Positions 8,150-64,000 of a stretch of DNA of 64,000 bases are shown one piece after another. The stretch's first letter is position 1. Every line of letters begins with the position of its first letter. The DNA lies in assembly GCA_022822305.1 (NCBI GenBank), contig JAJEBY010000016.1:248001-312000 (forward strand), given 5' to 3'. The stretch comes from Anaerolineae bacterium. GTDB taxonomy: Bacteria > Chloroflexota > Anaerolineae > Aggregatilineales > Phototrophicaceae. The translations under genes were made by a program, and so were the position numbers. Under the pieces are notes generated by a model. The model searched no databases. It was not told the origin of the DNA and saw only the letters and a list, made by a program, of their open reading frames with translations.

Positions 8150-8180
8150 CAGCCGCTAGTCAGCGGCGAAATGGCCCGCC

Positions 8181-9880: not shown

Positions 9881-9914
9881 TGATTCAGTGGCAATGTTGG
9901 ATCGGGAAGCCACG

Positions 9915-10769: not shown

Positions 10770-10839
10770 CTCGCGACTGCGTCCCCAATCTTGTGTCTGA
10801 GACAAATCCATTTTGCAGTGTGATCAACCAGAGGCACTC

Positions 10840-46746: not shown

Positions 46747-46871
46747 AATCTGTCACTCCGAAAGTCGAACTTTTCCGTTCTTGGTTCGAGCTTCTTCTCA
46801 GCCGCAGCGGAGGCAAATGGCTCTGGCCCCGTTTGGCCTTGGGCAATAATCACGAATCGCAATATAAAACG

Positions 46872-46894
46872 AAAAGTGGGGGCTGCCCACTTTT
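46872..46894 (-). terminator. Hairpin with terminator features in the nusA leader
   Basis: A perfect 9-bp stem (46872-46880 with 46886-46894) and 5-base loop, flanked on the minus strand by A-runs before and TTTTCGTTTT after it. It lies downstream of the nusA promoter and upstream of the nusA start. Every nusA transcript from that promoter must therefore pass it, as must readthrough from the operon ending at 46996. It may be that operon's terminator, a nusA leader attenuator, or both. On the plus strand it would also have a T6 tail, but no plus-strand gene needs it. Confidence 0.6.
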
Positions 46895-46919
46895 TTCGCG
46901 AAAACTACCATGCGCAATC

Positions 46920-46948
46920 ATTGTATCATCACGCCACAATGGCGTCAA
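46920..46948 (-). promoter_or_regulatory. Strong promoter of the nusA-infB operon
   Basis: Minus strand: TTGACG (46948-46943), exactly 17 bases, TACAAT (46925-46920), preceded by TGA giving an extended -10. Transcription would begin near 46913, about 167 bases before nusA, with the hairpin at 46894-46872 in the first 45 bases of the leader. Confidence 0.72.
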
Positions 46949-46995: not shown

Positions 46996-49900
46996 TCAGC
47001 CTGCAGGAATCGCGCGGGAAGGAAAGGGCGGAAACTTGAAGACTTTGCCGGCAACTGAGTCGCTGATGTAAACGAATCCGTCGCGGTCAACGGCGATTCC
47101 GGCGATTGCCTGGAATTGGCCATTGGCGCTGATTGTCCCGTCTTGGCCGAAGGCGCCAACACAATCTCCACTAGGGTGATACACCAACACACGATTGCTA
47201 TCCGGGTCGGTGACATAAAGCAAGTTGCGTTCTTCGTCAATGGCAAGGTAGGGTCGATTGAAGGTGGAATCGTACCAGCCGCGCACGCGGAAGTCCTGCA
47301 CGTGGTTGCCCGCCGTATCGAATACGGACACGCGTCGATTCCAGGTATCGGCCACAAACAGCCGTCCATCGGAATGCAGCGCGAGACCGCTCGGTTCGTC
47401 TAGTTCGCCCGGCCCGCTGCCGCCGCCGCCGATGTCAAATCGATACACCGCTTCGCCATCTTGAATCTGATAGGTCCGGATCCGCTTGTTGCCGGTGTCG
47501 GAGACAAAAATCATGCCGTCGCCGCTGACGGCAACATCGCGCGGACCCCAGAATCCGTCCAGCGGGTCTCGCGGCGCGTCGAAGCCGAATTCGCCCGGGC
47601 TGCCCCATTGCGTCAGCAAGTTGCCGGCAGCGTCTATGTGACGGATCTGATAGTTCCAGGTGTCAACGACCAGCATGTCGCCGTTGGCGAGCGCAGTCAC
47701 GCTGTTGGGTCGAACAAAGTTGAGCAGCCCGTCCCCGCCGATAGTCTGGATTTCCTGACCGTCGTCCGTGAAGACGCGAATTTGATGTCTGCTTTCGTCA
47801 GCGACATAAATCAATCCGTTGGCGGCGCTGACGCCAATAGGCTGCGCCAGGGACTGGTCTGCCGTTGAAAACTCAACCAGCGGGGATAGTTGCTGCCAGT
47901 TGGAGGCGCAGAGATTGATCTCGACCGGCATTTCGCTGGCGACTGCGCCCTCGCCCAAACCATGCTCCCAGATCTGAGCGGCGAAATCTTTGCGCACGTA
48001 AACATGCATTCGATCGGAAACGGGCCAGTTGGTCAGCGAGAAGTCGCGATTGGTCGCCTCGCCGTAGCGATCGTAATCGCGCGACCACCAGATATCGAAC
48101 ATGCCGCGGCGAATGTCGGCGGCGTTGTAATTGTCGGGCGAGAAATCGAGGGCGTTCAAAATGCGCTCCGGCGTCAGATTGAAGTATTCTTGCATCGGCC
48201 ACCACATCCGCGTGTAGTCGCGGCGGAAATATCGATCTTCCAGGATTGGTTCAACGTCGCCGCGGTGACCGGAACCCACGACGACGAAAATGGCGTCGTC
48301 GAGATTTTGAACGGTCGGATTGGCGCCGACAAATGACGCGGCCGTAAAGTCACGGAAGTACCAACTGTAGGGCCATGATACTTCATCGTCATAAGCGAAC
48401 TTCAGGTCCTTGCCATCGGTAAGGCGCAGGCTCATCTCGTTGATGTCGTCCAATACCCATTTGACCGCCGGCGCCGCATGGGCATAGACCAGGAATTCAG
48501 TCGCCAAATCGTAATTGACGAAGGACGCCAGCCATGCCGCGCGCAAGGTGAGCATACTGAGCAAGCTGAAAACGGCGACGGCGACCAGGCGCCGCAGGTG
48601 AATCCAGCCCACTTGCCGAGCGATGCGCGCGAGCAAATAACCCAGGACCAACGCCATCAGCAACGATGCCAGCCATTCGTAGGTGCGTTCGAGCTGCGCC
48701 TGGCTGAGTCCGACGAAAGGCGGATCGCCGGTCAGGTAGGCGCCGATCACGTGAGCGAGGCTGATGAGGAAAACCGGCATGATCAGCAGCGCCAGCCAGC
48801 CGCGCGAAAGAAAGCGCGCTTTATCGATTCTTGAGAATATGCCGCCGAAATACCAAGCCGTCAGCAGGATCATCGGCGTGGTCAGATGTGTGCCCAGCCA
48901 GGGCATTTTCTCGCCGGCCAGCGAATAGCCCACCAGGTTGAGGACTGCCCACCACGCCAGCAGCAGCAGGAATGGCAGCCGTCGCAGATAGCCGTCGTCT
49001 TGTTCGCCGGCGACGGCGTCAATTTGCCGCGTCCGGTAGCTTGTGGATATTGCCGCGTCTGCGCTTTGCACCGTGATAGAAGCGCTGCTGGAATCGTCTC
49101 CTGGCCGGAGCAATATCTCCGTTGCAGCGTTGCCGGTATCTTCAATTCCGTCGGATTCCGAAAGTGCCGCGTCTTCGCGACTGTCGCTTGATTCCTCCGG
49201 CGTCTGTTCGCCTTCGGCTTCCAGCTGATCAAGGCGACGGCGCCGCATTTTCCAGAATCCTGTGACTCCGGCGAACATGGCGGCGACGCTGCCGATGATG
49301 GGCAGATACTCGTATATCGGCAGAATGATCAGCAAATAATAGTATTGTGGCTGGCTGCCTCGGCGCACGCCTTGCTGTTCCAGCCAATAGCCCAAACTGT
49401 AGACCATTCCCGAGGCCAAGCCCGCGATATTGGTGAAAACCGTCGTGAAGAAGAATGCGAACAAGACATGGAAGATTCCGGAAGCAATCAGCCAGCGTCT
49501 CCAATTCCAGGTCAGGCCGACAACCAGCATCAGAGCGAATAGCGGGACAAATGCGGAGACGCCCAATAGAAAGCGGCCGATTTCTTCGTGACCGCCCAGG
49601 CCGGGCAAACCGGCGATTAGATTGTATAGACCGTTCGGCAGCGATTGGGCGAGCGCGCTGATTTCGGCGCTGCCGCCGCCCATCAAGCGCGGGAAGACTG
49701 CCGTCGTCCAAGGCAAGATCAGCGTGCCCATCAGCACAATGAAGTCGAACTCTGGAAATTGATTGAGAAAGCCCCAGATACCGGGACGCTGTTTGCCGTC
49801 TACGGCAAAAGTGTCGGCTCTCGCGGCACGGCGCGCGTCTCTGATTAACAGGGGCGCGCCGATGATCAGCAGCAGCCATAGCGGCAGGACAGGCAGCCAG

Positions 49901-50988
49901 TTGATATTCTGGCCGGGTGGCGCGGATGCCGTCGCCGCGTCTGCGTCCTCCGGCGCCAGCGGCTGCGCGGTTTCTGTCACGCTGGGCACATGCGACAGTT
50001 CTTCGAGGAACAGCAGACCCGCGGCGACGAGCAATGCGATCAGAAAGATCAAGAGTATCTCACGCCTCGGCAATCGGTTCAAGCGGTCTCGGAACACGTA
50101 GAGCGCTGCGCTCGCTGGAATGCAGAGCCCCGCCAGCAGCGTGAGCAGCGTCCAGGACAAGAAACTTGAACGATGCAAATCGCTCAAGTCGCTCCAGGGC
50201 GTGCCGTGTCCCGGAACAATTTCGGCCGGCACGATGTCGACGATGATGTACATGCCCAGGGTCATGACGCCGCCGAGCAGGATGCCAAGCATCAGCGTGT
50301 ACAGCAGTGGCTTGCCGCGCCAGTCGTAGCGATGCTGGGCCAGACGAATCAGGAAATAGATGCAGAGAAAACTGCCGAAAATGGCGATGTAAATGAAGGC
50401 CGTTTCTTTCGATCCGAGGTTGAGAATCAGCGCCGCGGCGAAGACATACAGCCAAAAGCCCCGCCGCCGATATTTGGGCGGGCCGTTGAGATACATCAGG
50501 ATGCAATGCGCCATGATCATGCCGAAAAGGATGGAGGGCGTGTCGTGGCGAATGTAGCGATTGTAATAGAGCAGCAGCGGCGAACTCAATATCATCAGCG
50601 AGGCCAGCAACGCGCCCCATTTGCCCAGCCAGCGGCGCCAGAGCAGGGGGAACATCACCATCAGCACACCCAAGACAGTGGTGTACAAGCGGCCGGAGAA
50701 ATCGCCGTCGCCGAAGAGGAAAAACGAAAGCGCTGTCGCATGGAAGAGCACAGGCCCGTGCATCAGGGGCGTGTGAGTGAAATTGCCCTCGTTGTACAAA
50801 TTGTAGGAAAAGCGCGTGTGCAGGCTTTCGTCGTGGCTCATCACGCGCTGATCGAGCATATAGAAGCGCGTGAAGAGGGCGAGCAGCAAGATCGCCACAT
50901 AGGCGGCGAATTCCCAATTGATTTTGATGCGATGGGTTATGATGCGGTTGAGCGCGTTTTCTTCGATTTGATTGGGCGTGGTCAACAT
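46996..50988 (-). CDS. Agl23-like GT-C membrane protein fused to an NHL beta-propeller
   Basis: A 1330-residue protein of the 'flippase activity-associated Agl23' (TIGR03663) type. The N-terminal 900 residues are polytopic, starting with a GT-C-like first loop (LDQRVMSHDESLHTRFSYNL) and PLMHGPVLFHATALSFFLFG. A charged cytosolic linker rich in Glu/Ser divides the spans around residues 620-680. From about residue 1045 to the end lie six NHL-type repeats (IGVSAANGLIYVADESRHQI, DMLVVDTWNYQIR, IFVSDTGNKRIR, RLFVADTWNRRVSVF, LLYVTDPDSNRVLVY, FVYISDSVAGKVFKF), predicting a six-bladed propeller outside the membrane. The family is linked to glycoprotein or surface-glycan assembly in archaea and Chloroflexota; its reaction is not established. 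ATG 50988. Last gene of the glycan cluster. Confidence 0.88.
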   Translation of the reverse strand: MLTTPNQIEENALNRIITHRIKINWEFAAYVAILLLALFTRFYMLDQRVMSHDESLHTRFSYNLYNEGNFTHTPLMHGPVLFHATALSFFLFGDGDFSGRLYTTVLGVLMVMFPLLWRRWLGKWGALLASLMILSSPLLLYYNRYIRHDTPSILFGMIMAHCILMYLNGPPKYRRRGFWLYVFAAALILNLGSKETAFIYIAIFGSFLCIYFLIRLAQHRYDWRGKPLLYTLMLGILLGGVMTLGMYIIVDIVPAEIVPGHGTPWSDLSDLHRSSFLSWTLLTLLAGLCIPASAALYVFRDRLNRLPRREILLIFLIALLVAAGLLFLEELSHVPSVTETAQPLAPEDADAATASAPPGQNINWLPVLPLWLLLIIGAPLLIRDARRAARADTFAVDGKQRPGIWGFLNQFPEFDFIVLMGTLILPWTTAVFPRLMGGGSAEISALAQSLPNGLYNLIAGLPGLGGHEEIGRFLLGVSAFVPLFALMLVVGLTWNWRRWLIASGIFHVLFAFFFTTVFTNIAGLASGMVYSLGYWLEQQGVRRGSQPQYYYLLIILPIYEYLPIIGSVAAMFAGVTGFWKMRRRRLDQLEAEGEQTPEESSDSREDAALSESDGIEDTGNAATEILLRPGDDSSSASITVQSADAAISTSYRTRQIDAVAGEQDDGYLRRLPFLLLLAWWAVLNLVGYSLAGEKMPWLGTHLTTPMILLTAWYFGGIFSRIDKARFLSRGWLALLIMPVFLISLAHVIGAYLTGDPPFVGLSQAQLERTYEWLASLLMALVLGYLLARIARQVGWIHLRRLVAVAVFSLLSMLTLRAAWLASFVNYDLATEFLVYAHAAPAVKWVLDDINEMSLRLTDGKDLKFAYDDEVSWPYSWYFRDFTAASFVGANPTVQNLDDAIFVVVGSGHRGDVEPILEDRYFRRDYTRMWWPMQEYFNLTPERILNALDFSPDNYNAADIRRGMFDIWWSRDYDRYGEATNRDFSLTNWPVSDRMHVYVRKDFAAQIWEHGLGEGAVASEMPVEINLCASNWQQLSPLVEFSTADQSLAQPIGVSAANGLIYVADESRHQIRVFTDDGQEIQTIGGDGLLNFVRPNSVTALANGDMLVVDTWNYQIRHIDAAGNLLTQWGSPGEFGFDAPRDPLDGFWGPRDVAVSGDGMIFVSDTGNKRIRTYQIQDGEAVYRFDIGGGGSGPGELDEPSGLALHSDGRLFVADTWNRRVSVFDTAGNHVQDFRVRGWYDSTFNRPYLAIDEERNLLYVTDPDSNRVLVYHPSGDCVGAFGQDGTISANGQFQAIAGIAVDRDGFVYISDSVAGKVFKFPPFPSRAIPAG

Positions 50989-51030
50989 ATGCAAGAAGGC
51001 CTAGCGCAACGGCGAATTGTACCAAATATA

Positions 51031-51561
51031 CTAATGAATCAGGTTTGGCACAGGCGTATTCTTGAGCAAGGGTCCTCCTCGTTCTACCCTGGATTGGGTG
51101 TGTAGAGGCGCGACTCTCTCAGTTAGAGCCAAGGCTTCAGGCGTCATGGCCAACCTAACCAGGGGCGGACGCTGGGGCAGGTCGACAGCGTATAGGGAAC
51201 TGTGCAGTCCGACGGTCAACGATAGCAGCAGCGTCGCCAATGCGATCAAAATGAGACCATAGCCTAAATTCGGGGATGCTGGCATTTTGTGATTGTGACC
51301 GATGGCGGGTCCTGACGCCGGCGCCAACTCGGTTTGCAGCGACAACCAGATGCTGTTCAGCCGTTGATCGTCCGGTCGTCCCAGGGCGGGCAGGTTGCGT
51401 CGAAGCTCATCGGTGATGGAGCGTTGTCGCAGGAATTCATCGTAGCAGTACTGGCATTCGTCGATGAAACGCGCGACGCGCCGGCGCGTGACATCGGGCA
51501 AATCGCCGCTGAGGTATCGCGCCATGTGGACTTTTGCGTATCGGTGTTTGAACTTAAACAT
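51031..51561 (-). CDS. Membrane-anchored anti-sigma factor with degenerate zinc motif
   Basis: 176 residues beginning with a short zf-HC2-like domain (HMARYLSGDLPDVTRRRVAR followed by FIDECQYCYDEF). One transmembrane helix (GLILIALATLLLSLTVGL, about residues 98-118) leads to an extracytoplasmic tail of about 55 residues. Its place 33 bases after an ECF sigma gene marks it as that factor's inhibitor. The zinc anti-sigma motif is incomplete: the His of H-x3-C-x2-C is Phe32, while His12, Cys36 and Cys39 remain. Signal sensing may be by the outer tail, through proteolysis or ligand binding. Confidence 0.8.
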   Translation of the reverse strand: MFKFKHRYAKVHMARYLSGDLPDVTRRRVARFIDECQYCYDEFLRQRSITDELRRNLPALGRPDDQRLNSIWLSLQTELAPASGPAIGHNHKMPASPNLGYGLILIALATLLLSLTVGLHSSLYAVDLPQRPPLVRLAMTPEALALTERVAPLHTQSRVERGGPLLKNTPVPNLIH

Positions 51562-51594
51562 CGGCCAGAACCAACCTCATGAAACCGCGGCCCT

Positions 51595-52197
51595 CTACAC
51601 CTTCAGCAATTCTTCCAGCAATCCTTGTCCTTCGGATTGCAGCGATCGCCGCATGCGCTGGTGACCGAGTCGGACGCGACTCTCGGCGGTCTTTTGCGGG
51701 CAGCCCATCACTTCGGCAATTTCGCGATAGGTCAAACCCTGTCCATAACGCAGTACAATTGCCTCACGCAGCCGCGGGGATAATTCTGCCAGCGCTTGTT
51801 GTATCGATTCGGCGGCGTCTCGGCGAATGGCCGCGGTTTCCGGCGCTTCGGCATCCGGCGCCCGCAGCTCGAAACCCAGCCATTGCGATATGTCCACGGT
51901 CAAGAAGCGCTTGCGCCGATAGGTATTTCGGCAGCGGCTGACGGCAATGGTGTAGAGCCAGGTCTTGAGCGAGGCCTTGCCCGAATCGTAACGATGCAAA
52001 TTCTTGAAGGCATAAAGAAATGATTCTTGCAGAATATCTTCGGCATCTTGCTCGTTCATGAGGAGGCTGAAGCAGAGTCGATAAAGGCTCGCGGCGAAGC
52101 GGTCATAGAGTTCCGCGTAACCGGCCTGGTCGCCGGCGAGCGCTCGCCCGATGATTGCGTCTACCTCGGCTCTGCTGGTGGCTTGACTTAGGGTCAT
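51595..52197 (-). CDS. ECF-type sigma-70 factor
   Basis: 200-residue alternative sigma factor of the extracytoplasmic-function group. Region 2 spans LYDRFAASLYRLCFSLLMNE through DAEDILQESFLYAFKNLHRYD and the -10 recognition segment LKTWLYTIAVSRCRNTYRR. Region 4 includes LSPRLREAIVLRYGQGLTYREIAEVMGCP and the recognition helix KTAESRVRLGHQRMRRSL. Regions 1 and 3 are absent, as in ECFs. ATG 52197 is used; ATG 52227 is also in frame. It precedes the anti-sigma gene and lies inside the run of glycan membrane genes, suggesting it regulates them. Confidence 0.95.
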   Translation of the reverse strand: MTLSQATSRAEVDAIIGRALAGDQAGYAELYDRFAASLYRLCFSLLMNEQDAEDILQESFLYAFKNLHRYDSGKASLKTWLYTIAVSRCRNTYRRKRFLTVDISQWLGFELRAPDAEAPETAAIRRDAAESIQQALAELSPRLREAIVLRYGQGLTYREIAEVMGCPQKTAESRVRLGHQRMRRSLQSEGQGLLEELLKV

Positions 52198-52265
52198 GAC
52201 TGTAAACCTATTGGGGTTGGCAGGCATTGCAGGTTCTACACACCCGGGCGCGAACATCCTCAGAT

Positions 52266-54266
52266 TCAATTGCGAAGCGCGACGGCGCTTCCATCATAGA
52301 TATCTTGACGCAGCCACAATATTACCGCCTCTTCAATTGCTATGTTAGCGCGCAAGCCACGATGCGACCACCACGCGGGCAGCTGCCAGGGAGTCAACTC
52401 CAACAGCGAAATGTATCGCCGCAACACGAATCGCTGCCCAACATAGCTGCCGCCAAGATCGGGCGGGCTGCCGTCCGTGTCCGCCATGATGACGATCGGA
52501 TCGCCCTCGGCAACTGCCGTATCCCGGACAAATCGCGCGTTGGGAAAATCGCGCGCCAGCCACGCCAGCAAGCCATCTTCACGCAGCGCGCTCTCGTGGT
52601 CTTCGACAATGGTCAGATCCAGCAACGGGAATCCACGGCTCTCGCGATCGGCGATCTCGAACAAGGTTTGACGCAGCAACTGCGCGTCTTCGGTTATGGC
52701 GGGTCGCATCCACAAAGACGCCGGCCGGTTGGCGTTGGCAACGCCGGCGTTCCAGGCGCCGCCTAAACCCGAGAGCAGAAGCAGCCACATGAATCCGAGA
52801 CCGATGCCTTGCAGGCAGGCGCCGGCGCCCCAAAGGTTTGAGCAAACCAGGCAAAGCAGAGCGGCTACGATGCCGCTAGTGAGCAAGAGGCCGATACCCT
52901 GCGCCAATCGTGGATAAGATGCCACGGACATGCGTTCCAATACATCGGCGGGGCCGGCGCCGGCTGGCACGTCAAGCAGCGCCCGGGCAACGGTCAAAAA
53001 ATGCGTCGACGCGACCAAAAGCAGCAGTAACACAACCGCGGACATGGCCCATTTGACCCACCAATAGTGCGTGGTATAGATGTCGTGTCCGATTTCGTCA
53101 TCGAGGTCTTCGCCAGCCGACCAGAGCGCCGCGACCCGACGATTGATCATCAGCTGTGTGATGCCGTAGCTCGCCAATAGGGTCAAGGGGAAGACAGCCC
53201 ACATAGCGTCGGCCGCTTTCGCGCCGGGATAGAGCAGTAAACCCAGGATCGACATGCCAGCCCAGGCGGCTGCAAAGCGATCAACATAACTGACCGCGCC
53301 ATGTCGCCAGAGCAGCCATGAGCCGCCAAGCGCAAAGACGATCAGCAGCGGCTCGTAGGTCAGCAAGGCGATGAAGCCGATCCGCAAACCTTCCGGCGCC
53401 ACCGGCGCTGTCCAGCTGGCGACGAAGGCATCTATCAGCGCGCCAACGGTGCGCAAGCCGCCGGGATTCAACATACCTGCGGTTGCAATCAGCGCGAGTA
53501 CAGCAAACGGCACGAAGGCCACTTTCGCGACGGGGAAGGCATTCAGGCGCTTCAGCGACATCTGCAGAATATCGTCACCGGACAAATCAAGCCGTTGCGG
53601 GGCGCTCAAAGCCGTGCGCCATACGGCCAGCCAGCCGGCGGCTAACAGGATCACAAAGAGCGGAATGCCGGACGGACTGGACAACAGCAGCATCAGGGTG
53701 ACGAAGGCGCTCGCCCACATCGCATCGGATACGCTGTGTGAATACCAGAATCGGCGAATCATCCAAATGGACAAGACGGTGAAGAGCATCATCCAGATGG
53801 CGCCATCGGCCAGGCGCGCGGTCAGAATCGGCAGCGTCAGCGCGGACAGCAGAGCCGACCAGACGAAGGTGCGGGTTATGCCCAGGGTATCGCGGAACAA
53901 CAAGGGCGTGAGGCAGAGCGCGACGCCGGCAAGCGCCGAGGCGATGCGCGCGGAAAACTCGCTGGCGCCAAGCGTAGAAAATGTCGCGAGCTGACTGAGA
54001 TAGGTCAGCGGACTTGGCGCGACCGCATAGCTGCCGGGCGCGTCGTTGTTGACGGTATGCCAGGCATGCAGCGACTGCCGCGCCTCGTCATCGCTCAGCG
54101 GCGCCTGATCCAGAGCGGCAACGCGCAGCACAAGCGCCAAAACTGCCAAGCCGATATAGGCCAACCACTCGGCGGATATCGTCTGCGCGTGGCCGGCGGC
54201 GCCAATCCTGGCTGCGCTCTCGCCGGATTCCACAGTCGTGGCGGCGCCAATGCCAGCTGCCATCAT
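52266..54266 (-). CDS. GT-C fold membrane glycosyltransferase-like protein
   Basis: About 666 residues, polytopic. The first outer loop carries a DDE motif (LDQAPLSDDEARQSLHAW) directly after the first span, the position of the catalytic acid in GT-C/PMT/ArnT enzymes. It is followed by LTYLSQLATFSTLGASEFSARI, the usual next helix. About ten further spans follow, with a soluble loop containing a predicted catalytic-site-like YTTHYWWVKW, and an outer C-terminal domain of about 150 residues (IADRESRGFPLLDLTIVEDH and onwards). Substrate unknown; a polyprenyl-phosphate sugar donor is inferred from the fold. ATG 54266 is taken because the longer GTG form at 54356 overlaps the upstream gene. Confidence 0.82.
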   Translation of the reverse strand: MMAAGIGAATTVESGESAARIGAAGHAQTISAEWLAYIGLAVLALVLRVAALDQAPLSDDEARQSLHAWHTVNNDAPGSYAVAPSPLTYLSQLATFSTLGASEFSARIASALAGVALCLTPLLFRDTLGITRTFVWSALLSALTLPILTARLADGAIWMMLFTVLSIWMIRRFWYSHSVSDAMWASAFVTLMLLLSSPSGIPLFVILLAAGWLAVWRTALSAPQRLDLSGDDILQMSLKRLNAFPVAKVAFVPFAVLALIATAGMLNPGGLRTVGALIDAFVASWTAPVAPEGLRIGFIALLTYEPLLIVFALGGSWLLWRHGAVSYVDRFAAAWAGMSILGLLLYPGAKAADAMWAVFPLTLLASYGITQLMINRRVAALWSAGEDLDDEIGHDIYTTHYWWVKWAMSAVVLLLLLVASTHFLTVARALLDVPAGAGPADVLERMSVASYPRLAQGIGLLLTSGIVAALLCLVCSNLWGAGACLQGIGLGFMWLLLLSGLGGAWNAGVANANRPASLWMRPAITEDAQLLRQTLFEIADRESRGFPLLDLTIVEDHESALREDGLLAWLARDFPNARFVRDTAVAEGDPIVIMADTDGSPPDLGGSYVGQRFVLRRYISLLELTPWQLPAWWSHRGLRANIAIEEAVILWLRQDIYDGSAVALRN

Positions 54267-54304
54267 TTGAGCCTGACCCAAAGCGCAATTGTCATCGCAG
54301 CCGC

Positions 54305-57049
54305 CTAGGCGTCCTGTCGCCGCGTCGCGTAGATTCGCGATGCGCCGGCTTCGCACACAATCGGTAGATGATCCAGAAAGAGCTCCTCACCGACATCGCC
54401 AAATTGCGAGCGTTCTGTCGATCCGAAAAGTATGTAATCGATCCCGTATTTGTCGATGATGTCATTGACCTGGTTCATATCGACGGCGGTGTAGAGCGCG
54501 TGCATATCTTGTTCTCGCGTGCCGGCAATCTCGCCATAAGTTGGTCCGCGCCATTGCCGCTCGTGATTCGCCCAGCCCAGCACGATGGGAATGCCGGTCA
54601 AGGCGCCGACCCGGCCATAAGCTGCGTTGTAGGCATCGCGCACGGCCTCACTGACGACGGCATCTGCGCGGCCCACGCTTGTGCGAAGGCAGTCGATAAC
54701 CTCGCGGTCGCGCGGATTCGCGTAACTGCTCCATCCATCAAGCGTCAGTGGTTTCAGGATTGTTATGCCATCTCCCTGGTTTTCAACAATGCCGCTGCTG
54801 TATGCTTGAATGATAGAGGACTGACCAGCGTCGTTCAAGCGACCGTCGGAATATAGGATCGTTTCGGCTTCCACGACGACGCCCGCCGCCACGTGTCGTA
54901 CCGGATTCTCCCAGTCCGGCGGCGGGAAATAGACGTTGTTCGCTGCGTGTCTGCCGGTCTCAATAATCGCCCGATGATTGATGCCCAAGGCCGTATACAA
55001 CAAGCCCGCCAGCAGCGAAATCGCGAATGCCAGGGCGAAGATCAGCCGCAGCCCGGCGCGCGGTCGCAGAACCTCCCGATCGAACAGAATGCTGTAAACG
55101 GCGTACGAGACGGCGATGCTCCACAGCGTCCAGGCCTGATAGTAGAATTTGAAAACCGTGTTGATGCGTCCGCCGAAATTGTCGCGCAAATAGACAAATT
55201 CGGGAACCAGCGTCAAACACAATCCCATACCGATCAGAAGCAGCGCGAATCCGCCCGCCGGCGCATACGTGAGCTTTGGACTGATTTCTGCCGTCTGACC
55301 AAATGCAGTTGCGGTTGGAGGAAACAGCCGTCCGATGATTACCAAGAGGCCCAAAAGCAAAATGACCGTCGTCCAACCATACGAAACATGCCGACTCAGC
55401 ACTTGCGCGAGACCGGGGCCCAAGCCGCCGGCGACCTCCAATAGGCGCGAAACCGGCGAAAGATGGGGCGGCGCGGCGGCGCCGATCAGTGTCAGCAACA
55501 GCAGCAGCAGCGACAAACCTGCAACAATGACGCCGACCGTTTTCCCGGCCAGGCGCCAGTTCTGTCGTGCGGCCTTTCGGCCACGCCAGGATTCGACAGC
55601 GAGATATGCTGCCAGCACGATCAGCAAGGGACCGAATACGATAAAGAATCGCTGAATTGCTGTGGGATGTGCCAGGTTGGGCAGGAGTCCGCCGGCTTGC
55701 GAACGGAAGCCGAGGGCATAGGGCATATACGTCACCAGCGCCACGGCCGCGATTTTCAATCCAAACAGCGCCAGTTGGGCGATGTCCGCGACATGCAGCC
55801 GCCCGCGGTTGTTCAGCAGCAGCCTGCGCAGTCCCTCGGCGCCGATGAGTCCCAGAAAATAGATGGGACCGTCCCAGGCGTTGAGGAAGGCAATTCCACC
55901 GACGGCAAGGCCATAGAATAGGATCTCCTCGGTCTGTGGCCGCCGATGAAGCAGAACGATGTTCAGCATCATGCCTATGATCATGATCGTGAAGGGCAGG
56001 GCCAAGACGTGCGGGTGATTATCGGCCAACAGAAAACTGAAGGCGGGAAATTCGGCTATCGGCTGCGGCGATCCCAGGCTGTTATCGAGATTGTAATCGG
56101 TCAGCACGCGGCTGGCGCGCCACCACCACCAGTGATCCCAGACCGCAGTATCCGTCGCCAGGGTCACGGACTGATCCTGCGCATAGGCGCTATCGGTGAA
56201 ATTCGAGCGCTGGTTTGTGCCCCAAAAGTCGAGATAGGATTCCGGCACGGCTCGGGCTTCATAGGGGATTTCGATCAACGCCAGCTGAAAATTGCCCACC
56301 AATGTCATCAGGAGCATGGCCACCAGGCCGCTGCCAAGCGCGGTCCAGACCGGCGATCTATTGCGTGACTGGGAATTGCGGCGCTGGAAGGCGCGCGATC
56401 GCACGAGATTGCAGCCGACGCCGAATGCGACCACGCCCGTGAGCGCGAATTGAGAAGCGCTGGTCAAATTGAAGGCGATGGTACTGGTGATGCCAGTCAT
56501 CATCGACAGCATCGACGATATCACATAGCCCAGATAGTAATAACTGATGGCGAAACCGGACATCCAGGGATCCTGCGGCGGGAAGGAAGGGCTGCGCTGC
56601 ACGGCGCTCATGAACGCCAGTTCCATGGGTTTTTCCGTTTCCACAAGCCCGTTCTGATGCGCGCGGTAAATCGCCCAGCCCAGAAAAAGCGCCGCGAACA
56701 GGATCTCAGTGACCAAGGCGAAGCGCCAGTTTTCCCGCCACCAGGCTGCCAGTTCGTCACGAGAAGCGCGTCTGGCGAGGAAGATCAAGCTGCCAATGAG
56801 TACCAGCATCCAGGTCAAGATGATGTTTCCGCGAGCGTTGTCGAAGAATCCGTAACTCGCCAGCAGCCAGTAGACGGTGGCAATCAGCAGCAGCCCAACC
56901 GTGCGCGCAAGGGAATATCCTTTGTCCGGCAGACCGCCCAACAGGCGATGGCAGAGCGGGAAGACGGCGAGACCCGCCAAGGTAATCCAGAGCCACCAGG
57001 CCAATAGCAGGTGGCCTTCGCGAGCGAGCCATTCCAGCAGCAATGTCAC
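54305..57049 (-). CDS. DUF2298 (chlor_Arch_YYY) membrane protein
   Basis: A 914-residue polytopic protein of the DUF2298 family, known from Chloroflexota and archaea and without proven activity. Hallmarks: ETEKPMELAFMSAVQRS then FPPQDPWMSGFAISYYYLGY (the YYY motif); WWWWRASRVL; IAEFPAFSFLLADNHPHVLA with the D-x-H-x-H cluster; FLNAWDGPIYFLGLIG; NTVFKFYYQAWTLWSIAV. An outer C-terminal domain contains VLGWANHERQWRG and ends with DKYGIDYILFGSTER. The acidic first-loop motif suggests a GT-C-like enzyme. GTG 57049 overlaps the upstream stop by four bases (GTGA), so it is coupled to the giant fusion gene. Confidence 0.88.
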   Translation of the reverse strand: MTLLLEWLAREGHLLLAWWLWITLAGLAVFPLCHRLLGGLPDKGYSLARTVGLLLIATVYWLLASYGFFDNARGNIILTWMLVLIGSLIFLARRASRDELAAWWRENWRFALVTEILFAALFLGWAIYRAHQNGLVETEKPMELAFMSAVQRSPSFPPQDPWMSGFAISYYYLGYVISSMLSMMTGITSTIAFNLTSASQFALTGVVAFGVGCNLVRSRAFQRRNSQSRNRSPVWTALGSGLVAMLLMTLVGNFQLALIEIPYEARAVPESYLDFWGTNQRSNFTDSAYAQDQSVTLATDTAVWDHWWWWRASRVLTDYNLDNSLGSPQPIAEFPAFSFLLADNHPHVLALPFTIMIIGMMLNIVLLHRRPQTEEILFYGLAVGGIAFLNAWDGPIYFLGLIGAEGLRRLLLNNRGRLHVADIAQLALFGLKIAAVALVTYMPYALGFRSQAGGLLPNLAHPTAIQRFFIVFGPLLIVLAAYLAVESWRGRKAARQNWRLAGKTVGVIVAGLSLLLLLLTLIGAAAPPHLSPVSRLLEVAGGLGPGLAQVLSRHVSYGWTTVILLLGLLVIIGRLFPPTATAFGQTAEISPKLTYAPAGGFALLLIGMGLCLTLVPEFVYLRDNFGGRINTVFKFYYQAWTLWSIAVSYAVYSILFDREVLRPRAGLRLIFALAFAISLLAGLLYTALGINHRAIIETGRHAANNVYFPPPDWENPVRHVAAGVVVEAETILYSDGRLNDAGQSSIIQAYSSGIVENQGDGITILKPLTLDGWSSYANPRDREVIDCLRTSVGRADAVVSEAVRDAYNAAYGRVGALTGIPIVLGWANHERQWRGPTYGEIAGTREQDMHALYTAVDMNQVNDIIDKYGIDYILFGSTERSQFGDVGEELFLDHLPIVCEAGASRIYATRRQDA

Positions 57050-60000
57050 TGATAGCGCTCCAGCAAGTATGTCCGCATGGCATCTTGGTTGACTTGATAG
57101 ATCAAGCCGCCGTCAACGGCATAGGCGATTGACAGCAATCCCTGTTCCACCATGCGATCGAGCTTATCCAAGCCCGCTTCGGTTGAGTGGACTTCTTCCA
57201 AACCGCTGCGGATAACATATTTGACATCGAAGTGATTGAGGATGTCCACGGCAACATCTATTTGCGGCGTGTCGTAAAATGTCCGAACGTTCTGTTCCCG
57301 CTGCTCGACCCAGCGCGGCAAGGGATGCAAGGCGCGCTGCTGCCGCTGGTGAAAGCTCCAGCCGACAACGGAGGGCAATCCCGTCGTGATAGAGATGCGT
57401 CCGTTCCATTGATATTCGCTGGGATAACGGCGGCCTTCCATGATTACTGGGGATCCGTCGACATTCTCCTGCAGCCAGCGAATCAACTGATGATCCACGC
57501 GGAGATCAATGACTTTGAAACGGCCTTTGTCGGGCGCGCTTTCGTGATGTACGGATTGCGTCATATAATCTAGGCCGTCCAGCGTCAGCGGCAGGTCCGG
57601 CGCCATGCGATCCAGCGAACGGGCGCGCGTGGCCACAATCGGGAAGGCGCCGGCCAGCACGAACAACAGGACGCAGGGCGCAGTCCACAGTAGACGCAGG
57701 CGGCTCGGCCAGCGATCCGCGGCGCGCCAAAGCGCGCTGAAGGCGGCGCCCCCGGCCACGCTAAACAGCAGCCAGACCTGAATATAGAACTTGAATACGG
57801 TATTCTGACGCCCGATATCGCCGCCAATGACGATGATCTCCACACCAAGTGTCATCGAAAGCGCCAGGCCGATTAGCGCGAGCAGGAAGCGCATGGCCCG
57901 CGACTGATCCGGGCGGAAAAACAAGACGGCGATCCAACTGACCAAGGGCAGCACGATGAGCGCGACTTGATAATGCGCCAGCGCCAGAATGACGGATAGC
58001 GCGAGAATCGCAAGCAGAGCGCCGCCGCTGAGCGTGACCGGTCTCATGCGGCCGCGCAATGCCGTTAACGGCGTCGATCTCAGCCAGGAAACCGTCTCCC
58101 AGGTCAAAAGCGAAACCACCAAAAACAGAAACAAGCCGTGGATATCGAGGTAGGCCCAGAGGGGCGTCTTTCCGCCCGACCACAGCTGAGCGCTGTTGTA
58201 TGTTGTCGCAAACCAGATCGTATAGGGAAGCGCAAATCCAAGGCTGAGTATCAGAAACCCGCCGACCGTGCCGCACAGGTCGAGGGCGGAGGCGCGGACA
58301 AGCAAGTGGCGACAAGCAATCCACAGCAATACCAGACCGATGCCCAGCATTGATACGCTGCGAAGAATGCCAATGGCGCGTTCCGGCGACCATCCAGACT
58401 CATAATAGGCGGGACTCGCTTGCGCGAGCAGGGCGGTACAGATGGCCGCGACGATGAGCATTACAGCCAGCAGCGATCCGTAAAATCGAAAGTCAATCCC
58501 GCCGCGAAAGGTTGGCCGCCAGCGAATCCACCAGCAGTATCCCAGACCAATCACGACGAACAGGGTCATTGACGGCCAATCCCAGGTATTGGTCGCGCGC
58601 ATGACGCCGACGGTAAGCCCGGCCAACGCCAGCGCCAGAAATCGCTCCAAGGGCGTGCGCTGATCGTTGCCTGTATGCGCCAGCGCGTTAAAGACGATGG
58701 CGACTGTCAGGAGAATCAGCGGCATATTAATCATGTGTGCGTGTAGATCGCCGTAGAGAAAGGTGAAGTAGGGCATCTCGGTGATGGCGTTGCCGCGCAC
58801 GCCGGGCGTTTCCGCCAAGACGCGCGACGGCCCCCAATACCAGCGGTCGCTTCCCAGGCGCAGCGATTCTCCGGCGAGCAATCGCCCGGCGCCTCGAACG
58901 ATGCCACCGACCAACGACGCCGAGTTGTGAATCTCGTAGCGCAGATTGTCAACCAGGTTGGATTGTGCTGCTCGCTCCGTCAACTGAGCGCGCGTATCGG
59001 CATCGACATCCAAACCGTGCTGGTCTCGATAATCTTCGATTAGATAGGTGACGAGTCCCTCCGGCGTACGATATCCGCCCAGCTCGGCCACGCCTTTGCC
59101 CAATACCCTGACCGTATCCAGATTGCCCAGCACGACGCACATCAGCAGCGCCATGATGCCCGCCAGCCAGGGATTGCCCAGGCGCCGTGGCGAGCGCGCG
59201 TTGGTAGTTTTGCTGTCGGGCTCGCGTCTGTACCAGCGCGATACGATATTGAACGCGGCGGAAAAAGCGCCGGAACCGGTCAGCGAAAACAGGGTCGGAA
59301 TCATCAAGTTGTAGGCGAATGAGGGCACGATCCCGAGCAGCAGGGCGGGCGCCCCGATCAGCACATAACCGAAGTAGTAGTAGTTGATGAATCCGCCGGC
59401 GAACCAGGGATCAATCGGCGGGAAAGTTGTGCTGCGCAGCACGCCGTTCAAGTAGGCGAAGTTCATCGGTTTTTCGCCGCCTTTGAAGGGATGCCATAGA
59501 TCGGGATTGGTCAGGCGCACGGCGATCATGAATAAGAATGCCAGCAGCGCGATGAGCTCCATCCAGGCCAGTCGCCGCCAGTTTTCGCGCAGGAATGCCG
59601 ATAGCGCGTCGCGATTGCGATAGGCCATGAACCCGCTGGCAAGGACTAGCAGAAACAGGAGAAGCAACAGGCCGGCTTGAGACCAAAGCGGCGCCTTCAG
59701 GGTCGAGGCGGCCCAGGCGAACCAGGCGACCAGCAGCAGACCAATCAGCTTGCTGAAGCCGTAGCCGCCATCCGCCATCTTGGGGAAAACGACAAATGCG
59801 AGTGGAAACGCTACCAATCCCAAGGTCATCAATAGCAGATACCAGAAAACCACGCCGAGGGCTTGATTTTGATTGGCGAGACTGCCGCTGAAGAAGCGCT
59901 CGGACCAGGCGCCGCCGGATGTTTGCGTCTCGTAATCGGATGCGGGAAAGGTCAGGGCGGTGGGCGCTGGATCCGCTCGATGTGAGGTCCAATACAAGAC

Positions 60001-62892
60001 GCCGAGCAGCTGCGCGTCGTCCGCATTCGGTTGCAGGTCATGCGCTTGTTTGAGTGAAACCGAAGACAGCGCCGCCTCGACTTTGGCGCGGGAGTAATCC
60101 GCGGACTTGCGAAATATGAATACGGCCGGATGGTCATAGACGTGGAAGGCTTCGTCGGCTTCGATTTCGTTGAGCCAGGCGGGCGAAGCATAGATCGGCA
60201 GATGCTGGTCGGAAACGCGCCAGGGCCCTAACGCGAAGGGTTCGTCAAAGACGGCCGCCAGTTCATATCCGAGCTCGCCGGCGAAGAGCTTCTCGTAGTA
60301 GAGCGTGGTCAGGGGCCAGCGCGTCGGATTGCGCGTTTCCGTATCGTAGAAGCGATTGCTGGCGATAGTCAGGTAGTCGCCGATATCCAGCGACCACAAG
60401 ATATGTTCGTACTTGGTCACGCTGTCCACTGGAAAAGACATGATCTGATCGTACGAGTTCACCAGGCTCCAGAACGCCATTGAACCGCGGCAATCGTTCA
60501 TACCGACCAGACCGGACGCCGGCCGATCGGACAAGGTCATGCCCGCAGGCAGCTTACAAGTCTGCGTGCCCGTCACCCGGTTGTCCCAGTCGCCTTCCGT
60601 CAGGACAACCGAGCCCGATCCGATCACATCGCCGCTGCCCGCATCCACACTGACGTCGACTCGGTACTGAATGCCTTCTTCGACTGCGAACGGGGCGTCG
60701 AAAGGAATGTTGTAGCTGCTGCCCAGCGGATGACTGTCGCGCTGCAAATCCGCCTCCAGACGCGCTTCGGCGACGATATCCGGCTCATCCACACGAGAAA
60801 CTCGGATGGTCAAGCGTTCCGGTTGTGGATCATCCAGCGGATCGCCCAAATGCGGCGCATAGATGCTTGATATGGTTCCGCTCGCCGGGGCGACGAATGT
60901 TGCGCTTCGCGTTTGATCTTCACGATAGGCGGTTACGCCGCGCAATAAGTTTTCGTCTACGCCAAACAGCTGATAATTGGAGCCGCCGATGGCGATATTG
61001 ATCAGAGGCACTGTATCGTCCGCGCCTTCAATCTGTATAGCGAAGTCGCCTGGCACGCGCTCGAACAGATAGCGAGAAGACTGTACTAGGGTGGTTTGAT
61101 GTCGATAGACGTTGCCAAACATCGCCCCCCAGATGCAAGTGAATCCGACCGCGAATATACCCAGCACGATGGCGCGTCTGGCGCGAAACTGTGGCAAAAC
61201 GGCAGCGGCGAGCAAGACCGCGGCTATCGCCAAAGCGGTGAGCGATGTGGCGTCGCTGATGCCGTTGAGGATTTGATAAGCGCCCACCGCGCCAAATAGC
61301 AGGGCCAAGATTATCAGGAGCAGCCGGGTCAGCGGGACGTCTCTGCCGGAGATCCGAGCGTTTTGATACAGCTGCTGCAGCGCCCAGCCCGCCAATACCG
61401 CCAGCGCGCTATACAGCGGCAGGTAATAGCGCATCGTCATCGGCCAGACCTGGTTCATCCAGACGAAATAGACGCCGATCCACAGCAAGGGCAGCAAGTT
61501 TCGCAGCGCTGACTTGCGTCCCATTGCGATCTGGAACAGGGCCCAGATCCAACCGAACCAGGCCAACAGCGCCATCGGCGGCCCCATGGCCCAAAGGAAC
61601 ATGTCTTTAAGCGGATAGAAGTAGGCCGCGCGCGAGAGCCATTGCCAGTTGGGCGGGGAGTCCTGCAATCCCGAGACGCCCATGCTGCCCGCGCTCAGAT
61701 TCTCGAACCAGCGGTCGTTGGGCAAGATATCAAAGAATCCGGGGCCGATGAAAGTGTAGGGATTGAGTATTCGAAAGGCCAGGAAGGCCCCAAGCCCTGC
61801 CAGCGCCAATCCAAAGGCATGGTATGCGAGCAGCCGGCTGCGATCCCGCGCAGCCAGGCGCGAATCGAATACTGGCGCGACCTGAATCAGAGCGGCGGCG
61901 ACGATAATTCCCGCCAGCGGCGCCAGGTTGATTCGGCTGGCTACCGCCGTGCCACAGGCGATGCCGAACAAGAGATAATGGAGCAGCTTCCCGCGTTGTT
62001 GAACGGCCACGGCGAAATAGAGCGCCAATGTGACCATGCAAGCGGCGATGGCATTGGTCGTGCCGTAGTGAGCCTTTTGAATGGCCAAGGGCGCGGCGGC
62101 ATACAGGATCGCGGCGGCCAAACCGACCCAGCGGCTGTGCATCCGCCGACCCAGGGCGAAGATCAGCAGAATCGTTATCAAGTCGAAAATCATCGACAGC
62201 CCGCGCCAAACCAAATGACCGCCTTGCCAATCGAAAAAGGGAAGTCCGGCATAGACGGCGTCTTGAACCAATTGACTGCCGACATGCGCCAAGAATAGCG
62301 GGAAAGTTCCATATACATAAAAGCCGTGCCCGGCCTGATGCGGATTCAAGGGAGAACAGCGAGCATCGAAATAACCGCCGCTGCCGCCGGCATCGGGATA
62401 CAAGTGATTGCAGCGGAGCGATTGCAATTGTTGCGATTCGAGCACATCCAGGACACGGACGCCGGCGCTATTGATTGCCTCGCGATCGCTCAAGACGACG
62501 ACATCAATTTGACCCGTTTGCAGCGCAACTGCCGCTATCCGATTGTCTTCGGCTTCAACGCGCTGATGTTCCGGCGCGATCCAGCGCGCCACATCCGCGG
62601 AAAACGAATCTTGCGCTGCTCCGACCCGCAGGTCAGGATCAGACGCGATATCTCCCGCGTTGGAGAATCGGTCATCGCCCTCGCGGACAAGGAGCAGCTG
62701 CCGCGGGAAATTGGTCTCGTCGTTGGTGTATTCATTGGCGCCGCCGACCGCCGGCAGCAGCAGGGCGGTGAGGAAGCGCTCATCGGGATGCGAATACGAG
62801 AAATCGTCCCAATTCTGCCCGGTCAAGCGCAAGACGGCGGCAAAGGCCAGGATCAGCGTAAGCAGCAGCGCAGTCAAAGCTCTGGATTTCAT
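57046..62892 (-). CDS. Giant fusion: GT39/PMT-like glycosyltransferase + DUF2298
   Basis: A 1948-residue membrane protein. Residues 1-610 are a GT-C/PMT-like module with the acidic first-loop motif SHPDERF. An unusual insertion of about 120 residues in that loop contains two cysteines (SLRCNHLYPDAGG and YFDARCSPLN). It is followed by PLAIQKAHYGTTNAIAACMV and MTMRYYLPLYSALAVLAGW. Residues about 620-1030 are a soluble beta-rich outer region. Residues about 1040-1948 are a complete DUF2298 unit: GGEKPMNFAYLNGVLRSTTF, DPWFAGGFINYYYFGYV, WYWGPSRVL, ITEMPYFTFLYGDLHAHMIN, NTWDWPSMT, NTVFKFYIQVWLLFSVAGG and GWSFHQRQQR. It is a paralogue of the next gene's product. The role is probably sugar transfer onto lipid or protein at the outer face; this is inference. 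Confidence 0.9.
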   Translation of the reverse strand: MKSRALTALLLTLILAFAAVLRLTGQNWDDFSYSHPDERFLTALLLPAVGGANEYTNDETNFPRQLLLVREGDDRFSNAGDIASDPDLRVGAAQDSFSADVARWIAPEHQRVEAEDNRIAAVALQTGQIDVVVLSDREAINSAGVRVLDVLESQQLQSLRCNHLYPDAGGSGGYFDARCSPLNPHQAGHGFYVYGTFPLFLAHVGSQLVQDAVYAGLPFFDWQGGHLVWRGLSMIFDLITILLIFALGRRMHSRWVGLAAAILYAAAPLAIQKAHYGTTNAIAACMVTLALYFAVAVQQRGKLLHYLLFGIACGTAVASRINLAPLAGIIVAAALIQVAPVFDSRLAARDRSRLLAYHAFGLALAGLGAFLAFRILNPYTFIGPGFFDILPNDRWFENLSAGSMGVSGLQDSPPNWQWLSRAAYFYPLKDMFLWAMGPPMALLAWFGWIWALFQIAMGRKSALRNLLPLLWIGVYFVWMNQVWPMTMRYYLPLYSALAVLAGWALQQLYQNARISGRDVPLTRLLLIILALLFGAVGAYQILNGISDATSLTALAIAAVLLAAAVLPQFRARRAIVLGIFAVGFTCIWGAMFGNVYRHQTTLVQSSRYLFERVPGDFAIQIEGADDTVPLINIAIGGSNYQLFGVDENLLRGVTAYREDQTRSATFVAPASGTISSIYAPHLGDPLDDPQPERLTIRVSRVDEPDIVAEARLEADLQRDSHPLGSSYNIPFDAPFAVEEGIQYRVDVSVDAGSGDVIGSGSVVLTEGDWDNRVTGTQTCKLPAGMTLSDRPASGLVGMNDCRGSMAFWSLVNSYDQIMSFPVDSVTKYEHILWSLDIGDYLTIASNRFYDTETRNPTRWPLTTLYYEKLFAGELGYELAAVFDEPFALGPWRVSDQHLPIYASPAWLNEIEADEAFHVYDHPAVFIFRKSADYSRAKVEAALSSVSLKQAHDLQPNADDAQLLGVLYWTSHRADPAPTALTFPASDYETQTSGGAWSERFFSGSLANQNQALGVVFWYLLLMTLGLVAFPLAFVVFPKMADGGYGFSKLIGLLLVAWFAWAASTLKAPLWSQAGLLLLLFLLVLASGFMAYRNRDALSAFLRENWRRLAWMELIALLAFLFMIAVRLTNPDLWHPFKGGEKPMNFAYLNGVLRSTTFPPIDPWFAGGFINYYYFGYVLIGAPALLLGIVPSFAYNLMIPTLFSLTGSGAFSAAFNIVSRWYRREPDSKTTNARSPRRLGNPWLAGIMALLMCVVLGNLDTVRVLGKGVAELGGYRTPEGLVTYLIEDYRDQHGLDVDADTRAQLTERAAQSNLVDNLRYEIHNSASLVGGIVRGAGRLLAGESLRLGSDRWYWGPSRVLAETPGVRGNAITEMPYFTFLYGDLHAHMINMPLILLTVAIVFNALAHTGNDQRTPLERFLALALAGLTVGVMRATNTWDWPSMTLFVVIGLGYCWWIRWRPTFRGGIDFRFYGSLLAVMLIVAAICTALLAQASPAYYESGWSPERAIGILRSVSMLGIGLVLLWIACRHLLVRASALDLCGTVGGFLILSLGFALPYTIWFATTYNSAQLWSGGKTPLWAYLDIHGLFLFLVVSLLTWETVSWLRSTPLTALRGRMRPVTLSGGALLAILALSVILALAHYQVALIVLPLVSWIAVLFFRPDQSRAMRFLLALIGLALSMTLGVEIIVIGGDIGRQNTVFKFYIQVWLLFSVAGGAAFSALWRAADRWPSRLRLLWTAPCVLLFVLAGAFPIVATRARSLDRMAPDLPLTLDGLDYMTQSVHHESAPDKGRFKVIDLRVDHQLIRWLQENVDGSPVIMEGRRYPSEYQWNGRISITTGLPSVVGWSFHQRQQRALHPLPRWVEQREQNVRTFYDTPQIDVAVDILNHFDVKYVIRSGLEEVHSTEAGLDKLDRMVEQGLLSIAYAVDGGLIYQVNQDAMRTYLLERYQ

Positions 62893-62986
62893 TGAATTAC
62901 GCCTCGTACACTATTACTCTGCGTCGGCTGCGATTCGGCGCCGGCTTGTCTCGTCATTCGGGAGACCCGTTGCCTTTCGTGTCTGG

Positions 62987-63604
62987 TCATCCGAATTCGT
63001 TTAGGAACATGCTTACGCTCGCTTCGCCCAAAGCCGGGACGCGGTAGAGATTATACGCCGTGCCGTCGTAAGCGGTTACCGCCAATTCGCGACCGATCGG
63101 AAACCGGGTCTTGAGCGTCGGCGCAATTTCCTCGACGTCGGGATTGAAGATGAATAGCAGGTCGCGATCCGCCCGGAAACGGTAGGGTCCGATTTTGGTG
63201 ATCGCCGAACGGATGTATCCGGGCACGTCAAGCAGTCGTTTGATGAGCTCAGCCAGCAGCCAAATGGCGATCGCGAGCAAGAGAAAGGGCGCGCCAAGCG
63301 CGAGCTCGTCGCCGTCGGGAGTTGAACGGTTGCCCGCGCCGCGCAGAATAGTGTTGCCGCGCAGCCCAAGGGACACGGCAATTCCAAACAGGAGCAGCTG
63401 TATTCTGGGCAAGTTGAACAGACGCAGAGGCAGCGGCAGATTCTGTATCGCGCGGCGATCCGGGCTCGAGTCGATAACGATTGAGGATGCTCGGTCGGGA
63501 TCCGCCAAAAGTGATTTCCAGGACTTCCTGTTCCTGGCAGGTCGCTTGGCAAACAGCAGGATCAATTGCAAGAGCGTAAGGTCTTCAATCGCGCGGTGTT
63601 CCAT
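62987..63604 (-). CDS. Membrane protein with GT-C-type tail domain, unknown function
   Basis: 205 residues from ATG 63604. It has a basic soluble head (KRPARNRKSWKSLLADPDRA) and one or two hydrophobic spans (IQLLLFGIAVSLGL; APFLLLAIAIWLLAELI). The soluble C-terminal domain contains ADRDLLFIFNPD, a TRFPIGRE segment and LYRVPALGEA. The last 65 residues match the C-terminus of the protein encoded just upstream at the window edge. It may be a stand-alone accessory protein or the decayed remainder of a larger glycosyltransferase: the frame stays open some way upstream of the ATG but shows no GT-C motifs there. It precedes the giant fusion gene by 94 bases. Confidence 0.65.
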   Translation of the reverse strand: MEHRAIEDLTLLQLILLFAKRPARNRKSWKSLLADPDRASSIVIDSSPDRRAIQNLPLPLRLFNLPRIQLLLFGIAVSLGLRGNTILRGAGNRSTPDGDELALGAPFLLLAIAIWLLAELIKRLLDVPGYIRSAITKIGPYRFRADRDLLFIFNPDVEEIAPTLKTRFPIGRELAVTAYDGTAYNLYRVPALGEASVSMFLNEFG

Positions 63605-63702
63605 TGCTGTTCGGAGTCTGCCCCCTGTTGTGGCAAACGCTTCAGTCGATACATTGCTTGCGCATGCGCGCTGCGACCGACGCGCAATGCAGGCGCATCA
63701 GA

Positions 63703-64000
63703 TCAGCGCGCGCTGAAGAACTCGTCCCAACCTGCTTCTCCCAGCGCGGGCACACGATACAAAAAGAACTGATCCTCTGGATGATAAGACTGGATGAGTG
63801 TTTGTCGTCCTTCCGGGAACATTTCACGCAGCTGTCCCAAAGATGCTTGGTCGCGCGCATTGACGAAGAACAGCAAATCGCGATCGGGCGCCAGTTGCAG
63901 ATCATCTCCGCGCCGCCGGGCATCCGCCAGTTTCTGCGGCAGCCATTCGATGGGCGCGCCGTCATTCGGCCAGAGTGGGTAACCGGCCACGATTCCCAGC
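63703..64000 (-). CDS. C-terminal end of a probable GT39-like membrane protein (5' part beyond the window)
   Basis: The frame is open to the right edge, and no good start codon with a ribosome-binding site is seen; a GTG at 63990 is internal. The visible 98 residues (GYPLWPNDGAPIEWLPQKLA, APDRDLLFFVNARDQASLGQ, MFPEGRQ, FFLYRVPALGEA) look like the outer soluble tail that ends many Chloroflexota GT39/PMT-type glycosyltransferases, judged from memory of such tails. If so, the glycan cluster continues past the window. The stop at 63703 leaves 98 bases to the next gene. Confidence 0.6.
   Translation of the reverse strand, partial: LGIVAGYPLWPNDGAPIEWLPQKLADARRRGDDLQLAPDRDLLFFVNARDQASLGQLREMFPEGRQTLIQSYHPEDQFFLYRVPALGEAGWDEFFSAR

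Follow-up and report, generated by a model that had tools for sequence, protein, structure and literature searches.

A predicted autoregulated ECF sigma factor within an Agl23/DUF2298 glycan-assembly cluster of the Aggregatilineales

Sigma-E of Streptomyces coelicolor is under the control of a two-component system. In the system of sigma-E and the cell-wall-glycan operon cwg, this ECF sigma factor drives glycan-synthesis and envelope genes from AAC/TC-type promoters within a large regulon, and its promoter targets were traced by conservation across genomes (PMC6767563). For the membrane glycosyltransferase Agl23, translocation of lipid-linked Man5GlcNAc2 by the Haloarcula hispanica enzyme has been reported in vitro (PMC11182771; Lu 2020, PMID 32706435, cited there), and the statement of the original prediction that reactions of this family are not established is thus outdated.

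Here, a 64,000-nt stretch of DNA from an Anaerolineae bacterium (contig JAJEBY010000016.1, positions 248,001-312,000; hereafter the window) was analysed, in which a protein of the Agl23 family is encoded beside an ECF sigma factor. This protein, Agl23-NHL, bears the same curated family name as the H. hispanica enzyme (TIGR03663), with a score well over the cut-off, and by analogy may act in a lipid-linked-sugar step on the outer face of the membrane; it differs in its length (about 1,330 aa), its NHL propeller and its linkage to a sigma/anti-sigma pair. As for sigma-E, glycan-synthesis and envelope genes are the predicted targets and were traced by cross-genome conservation, whereas in the window a membrane anti-sigma factor is encoded alongside, the regulon is predicted to be very small and the putative promoter is of a TGAGGA/GTGTA type. 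Two proteins of the window pass the curated cut-off of the DUF2298 family (TIGR03662, Chlor_Arch_YYY) and co-occur with Agl23; one of them carries DUF2298 in fusion with a PMT_2 GT-C domain, and the model of the other, single copy has an AglB-like C-terminal domain. The overall GT-C fold modelled for Agl23 and DUF2298 is that of the STT3/AglB oligosaccharyltransferases and of ArnT/PMT, whereas the oligosaccharyltransferase family itself (STT3/PglB/AglB, PF02516) has no match in the genome and its WWDYG motif was not seen. Literature searches returned no paper linking an ECF factor with Agl23 or DUF2298 and none on TIGR03662, TIGR03663 or PF10060, and the ECF literature found contained no group matching the sigma factor of the window.

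Gene content of the cluster

As the original prediction had described, seven minus-strand genes lie in a row at 46996-63604 of the window, separated by gaps of 94 bp (BIG1948/P205), 33 bp (sigma/anti-sigma) and 36 bp (anti-sigma/Agl23-NHL) or overlapping by 4 bp (BIG1948/DUF2298), and the first-loop motifs HDE, DDE, EKPM and HPDE are found in their proteins. The features of the locus are as follows.

46872-46894, minus strand: hairpin with a 9-bp stem and a T-rich tail, 3' of the Agl23-NHL gene and ahead of nusA
46996-50994, minus strand: Agl23-NHL, a GT-C protein with SHDES in the first loop and, from about residue 1033 to the end, an NHL beta-propeller as its C-terminal part
51031-51561, minus strand: membrane anti-sigma factor, 176 aa, with one TM helix (about 99-120) and a short P/T-rich outer tail
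51595-52197, minus strand: ECF sigma factor of 200 aa, counted from the corrected, most likely start ATG 52197; matches Sigma70_r2, r4 and r4_2
52237-52262, minus strand: putative ECF-type promoter just upstream of the sigma gene, TGAGGA (52257-52262)-N15-GTGTA (52237-52241)
52266-54356, minus strand: GTC696, a divergent Agl23-like GT-C protein with SDDEA; TIGR03663 53.3 bits, conserved position
54305-57049, minus strand: DUF2298_914, a DUF2298/TIGR03662 protein with TEKPM and YYYxGY; TIGR03662 425 bits, cut-off 300
57046-62892, minus strand: BIG1948, a PMT_2 GT-C protein (HPDE) with a fused DUF2298/TIGR03662 domain
62987-63604, minus strand: P205, an internally deleted paralogue of UP919
63642-64000, minus strand: C-terminal part of UP919 (GT-C, 919 aa), the rest of which lies outside the window
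6703-9462, 9522-10694 and 10675-11721 of stretch L010, upstream of the window: UP919, UP390 (GT4) and UP348 (LPG_synthase_TM)

What had been taken for the tail of a further GT-C protein at the edge of the window does belong to such a protein, being the C-terminus of the 919-aa UP919 gene. The cluster runs on upstream through UP919, the GT4 gene UP390 and the LPG_synthase_TM gene UP348 up to the divergent rplY, with gyrA beyond it and nusA on the opposite flank. P205 matches UP919 at residues 119-175 and 793-917, keeping its N-terminal TM part and C-terminal tail; since the core is missing and the gene is nearly absent from relatives (one weak match, L047), P205 is read as a recent internally deleted duplicate or relic. 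At the other end, the hairpin may mark the end of the operon before nusA, though matches of its kind are no commoner than in shuffled sequence (19 versus 16.7). Upstream of this 9-bp hairpin, and likewise before nusA (46861-46948), is a good sigma-70-like promoter (TTGACG-17-TACAAT with TG), and the two could together form a nusA leader attenuator.

Among the membrane proteins, Agl23-NHL scores 240.8 bits against TIGR03663 (cut-off 126.25) and 100 bits against NHL, while GTC696 falls below the TIGR03663 cut-off and is a weak Agl23 relative only. BIG1948 matches PMT_2 (42 bits) and TIGR03662 (469 bits, cut-off 300), and its open frames span about 1,500-2,460 aa in most members of the order. Structure models were made for the Agl23 core (residues 20-1045; pLDDT 73.6, pTM 0.79) and for DUF2298_914 (pLDDT 84.2, pTM 0.89), and both show the GT-C fold that the original prediction had expected of such cores. 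The Agl23 core aligns with solved GT-C enzymes including STT3 (Z 23.6) and ArnT (Z 20.7), and DUF2298_914 with STT3 (Z 15.0, rmsd 7.5 over 464 residues); because Foldseek gave modest E-values (1e-4 and 3.5e-4 at best) and poor global TM-scores, the fold assignment rests on VIA-align comparison of the Foldseek hits. A sequence search of solved structures matched Agl23 by its NHL part only and gave nothing credible for DUF2298. Residues 775-910 of DUF2298_914 align with the globular domain at the C-terminus of archaeal AglB (3vu0; Z 11.4, rmsd 2.5 over 116 residues). The modelled fold suggests that DUF2298_914 is a candidate oligosaccharyltransferase-like enzyme in Chloroflexota and that protein glycosylation may be the role of the cluster.

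The sigma factor fits the ECF class, being short and having regions 2 and 4 only (Sigma70_r2 61 bits, r4_2 57 bits), and it is the most conserved gene of the cluster in the genus, with a mean identity of ~83%. Its longest open reading frame spans 51595-52269, but the true start is most likely ATG 52197 (MTLSQ...), because this ATG is conserved and the invariant promoter motif falls in the 68 bp that separate it from the GTC696 stop (52266-52268). The anti-sigma factor of the window is by itself a weak family match, and among 25 aligned orthologues 24 match the NCBI anti-sigma model NF052375 and 17 match zf-HC2. It shows traits of class I (ASD/ZAS) anti-sigma factors, namely a predicted N-terminal zinc-finger-like domain on the cytoplasmic side, a single hydrophobic segment and a gene adjoining that of an ECF sigma factor in 80/80 loci. 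The canonical Hx3Cx2C zinc motif is absent from the protein of the window, which has FIDECQYC instead; the motif is optional in this class, being missing from about half of the membrane members (PMC7406223). Many anti-sigma factors elsewhere in the order carry HLxxCxxC, and the canonical His is lost in the genus of the window.

Conservation of the cluster and origin of the sigma/anti-sigma pair

Sixty relatives were searched with the DUF2298 protein. Named genomes suggest Aggregatilineales/Phototrophicales within the Anaerolineae as the order concerned. The order UP348-UP390-UP919-BIG1948-DUF2298-GTC696-sigma-anti-sigma-Agl23-NHL is kept in the genus, many members of which, judged from isolate codes, are presumably sponge MAGs, and in several other families of the Aggregatilineales; some genus members have no recognisable UP348, and UP390 is then the first gene. 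As this order recurs across families at 30-60% protein identity, its conservation is above chance. Such synteny bears out the original view of one GT-C assembly cluster with its own sigma/anti-sigma pair. Two records with other names (L123, JAHHHY010000002.1, named Pleurocapsa minor; L148, JAPUDW010000005.1, named Bacteroidetes) also carry the Aggregatilineales cluster and are probably mislabelled or contaminated MAGs.

Among the best 80 sigma loci, counted in named genomes, the sigma gene is followed by the anti-sigma gene in all 80 and then by Agl23-NHL in 79, the last locus ending at a contig end. GTC696 precedes the sigma gene in 76/80; of the other four, two are contig ends and two are real (L116, Prado087; L138, L.E.CH.6). 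The latter were considered as counter-examples and rejected, as sigma, anti-sigma and Agl23-NHL are still together in them although the upstream GT-C genes are gone. The same three genes stand alone in family f7 (G274, G048, G270, G042, G053), with no DUF2298 gene in the stretch examined around them, and Agl23-NHL is therefore the tightest partner of the pair. Evolutionary distances of sigma and Agl23-NHL correlate (r = 0.95), as is expected of any vertically inherited gene set.

In other orders of Anaerolineae, GTC696 directly adjoins Agl23-NHL with no sigma pair between them (L163, L166, L168, L169, L171, L172), and in a phylum sample of 201 genomes TIGR03663 was found in 132, a sigma orthologue (E <= 1e-40) in 2. 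Because other orders keep the cluster without the pair and close sigma relatives are so few, the pair is most simply explained as an insertion in the ancestor of the Aggregatilineales. The one sigma relative found outside the order (G188) had neither cluster nor motif adjoining and was set aside. Relatives lacking the pair had been named as evidence against a regulated machine; they do occur in other Anaerolineae orders, and the sigma-less clusters indicate not that the pair is irrelevant but that it was added later.

A conserved promoter-like motif and its predicted targets

Both boxes of the putative promoter upstream of the sigma gene are invariant in 17/17 aligned members of the genus, while the flanks vary. 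If one mismatch is allowed, 76 of 85 distinct loci of the order have the motif within 290 nt around the sigma start, compared with a chance level of ~2% of random stretches. Of 101 exact hits in the loci examined, 100 are on the coding strand close to where a cluster gene starts (sigma 83, BIG1948 14, UP348 2, GTC696 1); these counts are not independent, since many loci overlap or represent the same contig twice, and the two hits assigned to UP348 fit loosely in distance. Over whole genomes, 115 sites were found in 61 Aggregatilineales genomes against 33 for a reversed-pattern control, and 23 against 19 in 58 genomes from other orders of the class. The motif is thus enriched in the order and not outside it. 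A looser pattern, TRAGR-N16-GTGTA, is not enriched genome-wide in the genus (5 sites against 18 for the control in the genome of the window), so it was used only together with a conserved position across genomes.

The exact motif has two sites in the 3.67-Mb genome, one of them in the window, where no further copy was found even at one mismatch. This only recognisable putative sigma promoter of the window sits between GTC696 and the sigma gene, from where only sigma, anti-sigma and Agl23-NHL would come under its control. No recognisable site lies ahead of the five upstream membrane genes of this genome, including UP348, UP919 and BIG1948, and the single transcript, with the whole cluster switched at once, that the original prediction had proposed is not supported for this genome in that form.

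The coverage of the cluster by the motif varies among lineages. In other families, 12 loci have the motif ahead of BIG1948 and several have it ahead of UP348, and family f3 (G269, G276) has three sites, at the UP348, BIG1948 and sigma operons. In the genus of the window the BIG1948 site is unrecognisable except in G033 (one mismatch), and in some lineages where UP390 is the first gene a looser site precedes it. A common motif upstream of UP348 was sought in the genus and none aligned, the conserved block there being a divergent tRNA-Gly gene. In family f7 (L236, L237, L238) the motif lies between sigma and anti-sigma, and in G274 also upstream of sigma; the anti-sigma/Agl23-NHL part of this family may have a sigma-dependent start of its own.

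The second exact site of the genome lies upstream of its only undecaprenyl diphosphate synthase gene (UppS). TRAGR-N16-GTGTA is present upstream of the UppS gene in 13/13 genus genomes examined, at a near-constant distance, and the strict motif precedes it in two genomes of another genus as well. A third, looser site is found ahead of a GDP-fucose-synthase-like gene (258 bits against a curated cut-off of 500), at a distance of 62 nt; in 25 of 30 genus genomes this gene has the motif, with no more than one mismatch, 56-65 nt upstream. The BIG1948, UP348, UppS and GDP-fucose-synthase-like targets played no part in defining the motif, and the promoter motif common to the last two lends independent support to the earlier idea that lipid-linked sugars are the substrates of the cluster.

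Two further observations concern the extent of the regulon. In family f4 (L234, L235) the motif precedes a second LPG_synthase_TM operon, which also holds amine-oxidase-like and nitroreductase-like genes, and a UDP-glucose dehydrogenase gene, so that the regulon of this family may be larger. Near position 1500, L286 (G000) and L299 (G017) share a 33-bp element with TRAGR-N16-GTGTA ends, 88% conserved between these two genus members in poorly conserved surroundings, ~190 nt upstream of a gene that is CarD-like by eye and has no library match; this site was left out as a target because its spacer is conserved too.

Proposed regulation and alternative explanations

We consider it probable, with good confidence, that the inserted pair forms an autoregulated ECF regulon coupling a lipid carrier, a sugar donor and an Agl23-type transferase. 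According to this model, the pair entered an older Agl23/DUF2298 glycan-assembly cluster between two of its GT-C genes in the ancestor of the Aggregatilineales. From gene order and motif distribution, we infer that the sigma factor would recognise TRAGGA-N15-GTGTA and transcribe its own operon (sigma, anti-sigma and Agl23-NHL), which would amount to positive autoregulation, together with the UppS and GDP-fucose-synthase-like genes in the genus of the window and the BIG1948 and UP348 operons in other families. The anti-sigma factor would hold it inactive until an envelope or glycan-assembly signal releases it, whereupon UppS, the GDP-fucose-like donor and Agl23-NHL would rise together, and outer-face transferases would build a surface glycan or glycoprotein. 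Set against this model are the anti-sigma factor, which has no known sensor domain and in the genus no canonical Hx3Cx2C, and some UppS and epimerase sites, which stray from the strict consensus. A further step, in which Agl23-NHL is itself the sensor, its outer-face NHL propeller binding the anti-sigma factor through the latter's short outer tail and sigma being freed when lipid-linked glycan or acceptor is limiting, is attractive because that tail is short and the pair is always seen with Agl23-NHL, but we regard it as rather unlikely. If true, the enzyme would report its own workload and set the supply of lipid carrier and sugar donor.

The motif might instead be the site of another regulator or sigma factor that controls sigma, UppS and the cluster genes, the embedded sigma factor having other targets. 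Candidates are plentiful, with 32 candidate ECF-like genes at first look in the genome of the window and 7 to 60 in the other class members listed, but the two asymmetric boxes keep a constant 15-nt spacer, share the strand of the gene and stand at a distance usual for promoters, and enrichment of the motif is confined to the order with this sigma factor, ahead of whose gene it lies in nearly every locus, even where the rest of the cluster is elsewhere, which makes such a regulator quite improbable. It is highly improbable that the pair is a passenger linked to the glycan genes by history and exerting no control over them: the cluster does exist in other orders without it, and gene order could persist within an order through vertical inheritance alone, yet the pair remains beside Agl23-NHL after rearrangements (L116, L138, family f7) and its motif is also found at the unlinked uppS and sugar-nucleotide genes.

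A different question is what the cluster makes, and here we give a substantial, if less than even, chance to a secreted or capsular polysaccharide produced under the same regulation in place of glycoproteins. The lack of an STT3 family match in the genome and the LPG_synthase_TM and GT4 genes of the cluster favour this product, whereas the AglB-like C-terminal domain of the DUF2298 model (Z 11.4, rmsd 2.5) and the top fold matches, which are protein glycosyltransferases, point to a protein acceptor, with the proviso that fold alone leaves the acceptor unfixed.

In summary, Agl23 and DUF2298 are curated families without an established bacterial function, and a promoter motif shared with lipid-carrier and sugar-donor genes ties them to lipid-linked glycan assembly independently of their own sequences. 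The predicted autoregulated regulon would be small, exact and testable in a lineage for which hardly any genetics exists, and it may provide an example of a sigma/anti-sigma pair that entered an existing cluster and then extended its control outward.
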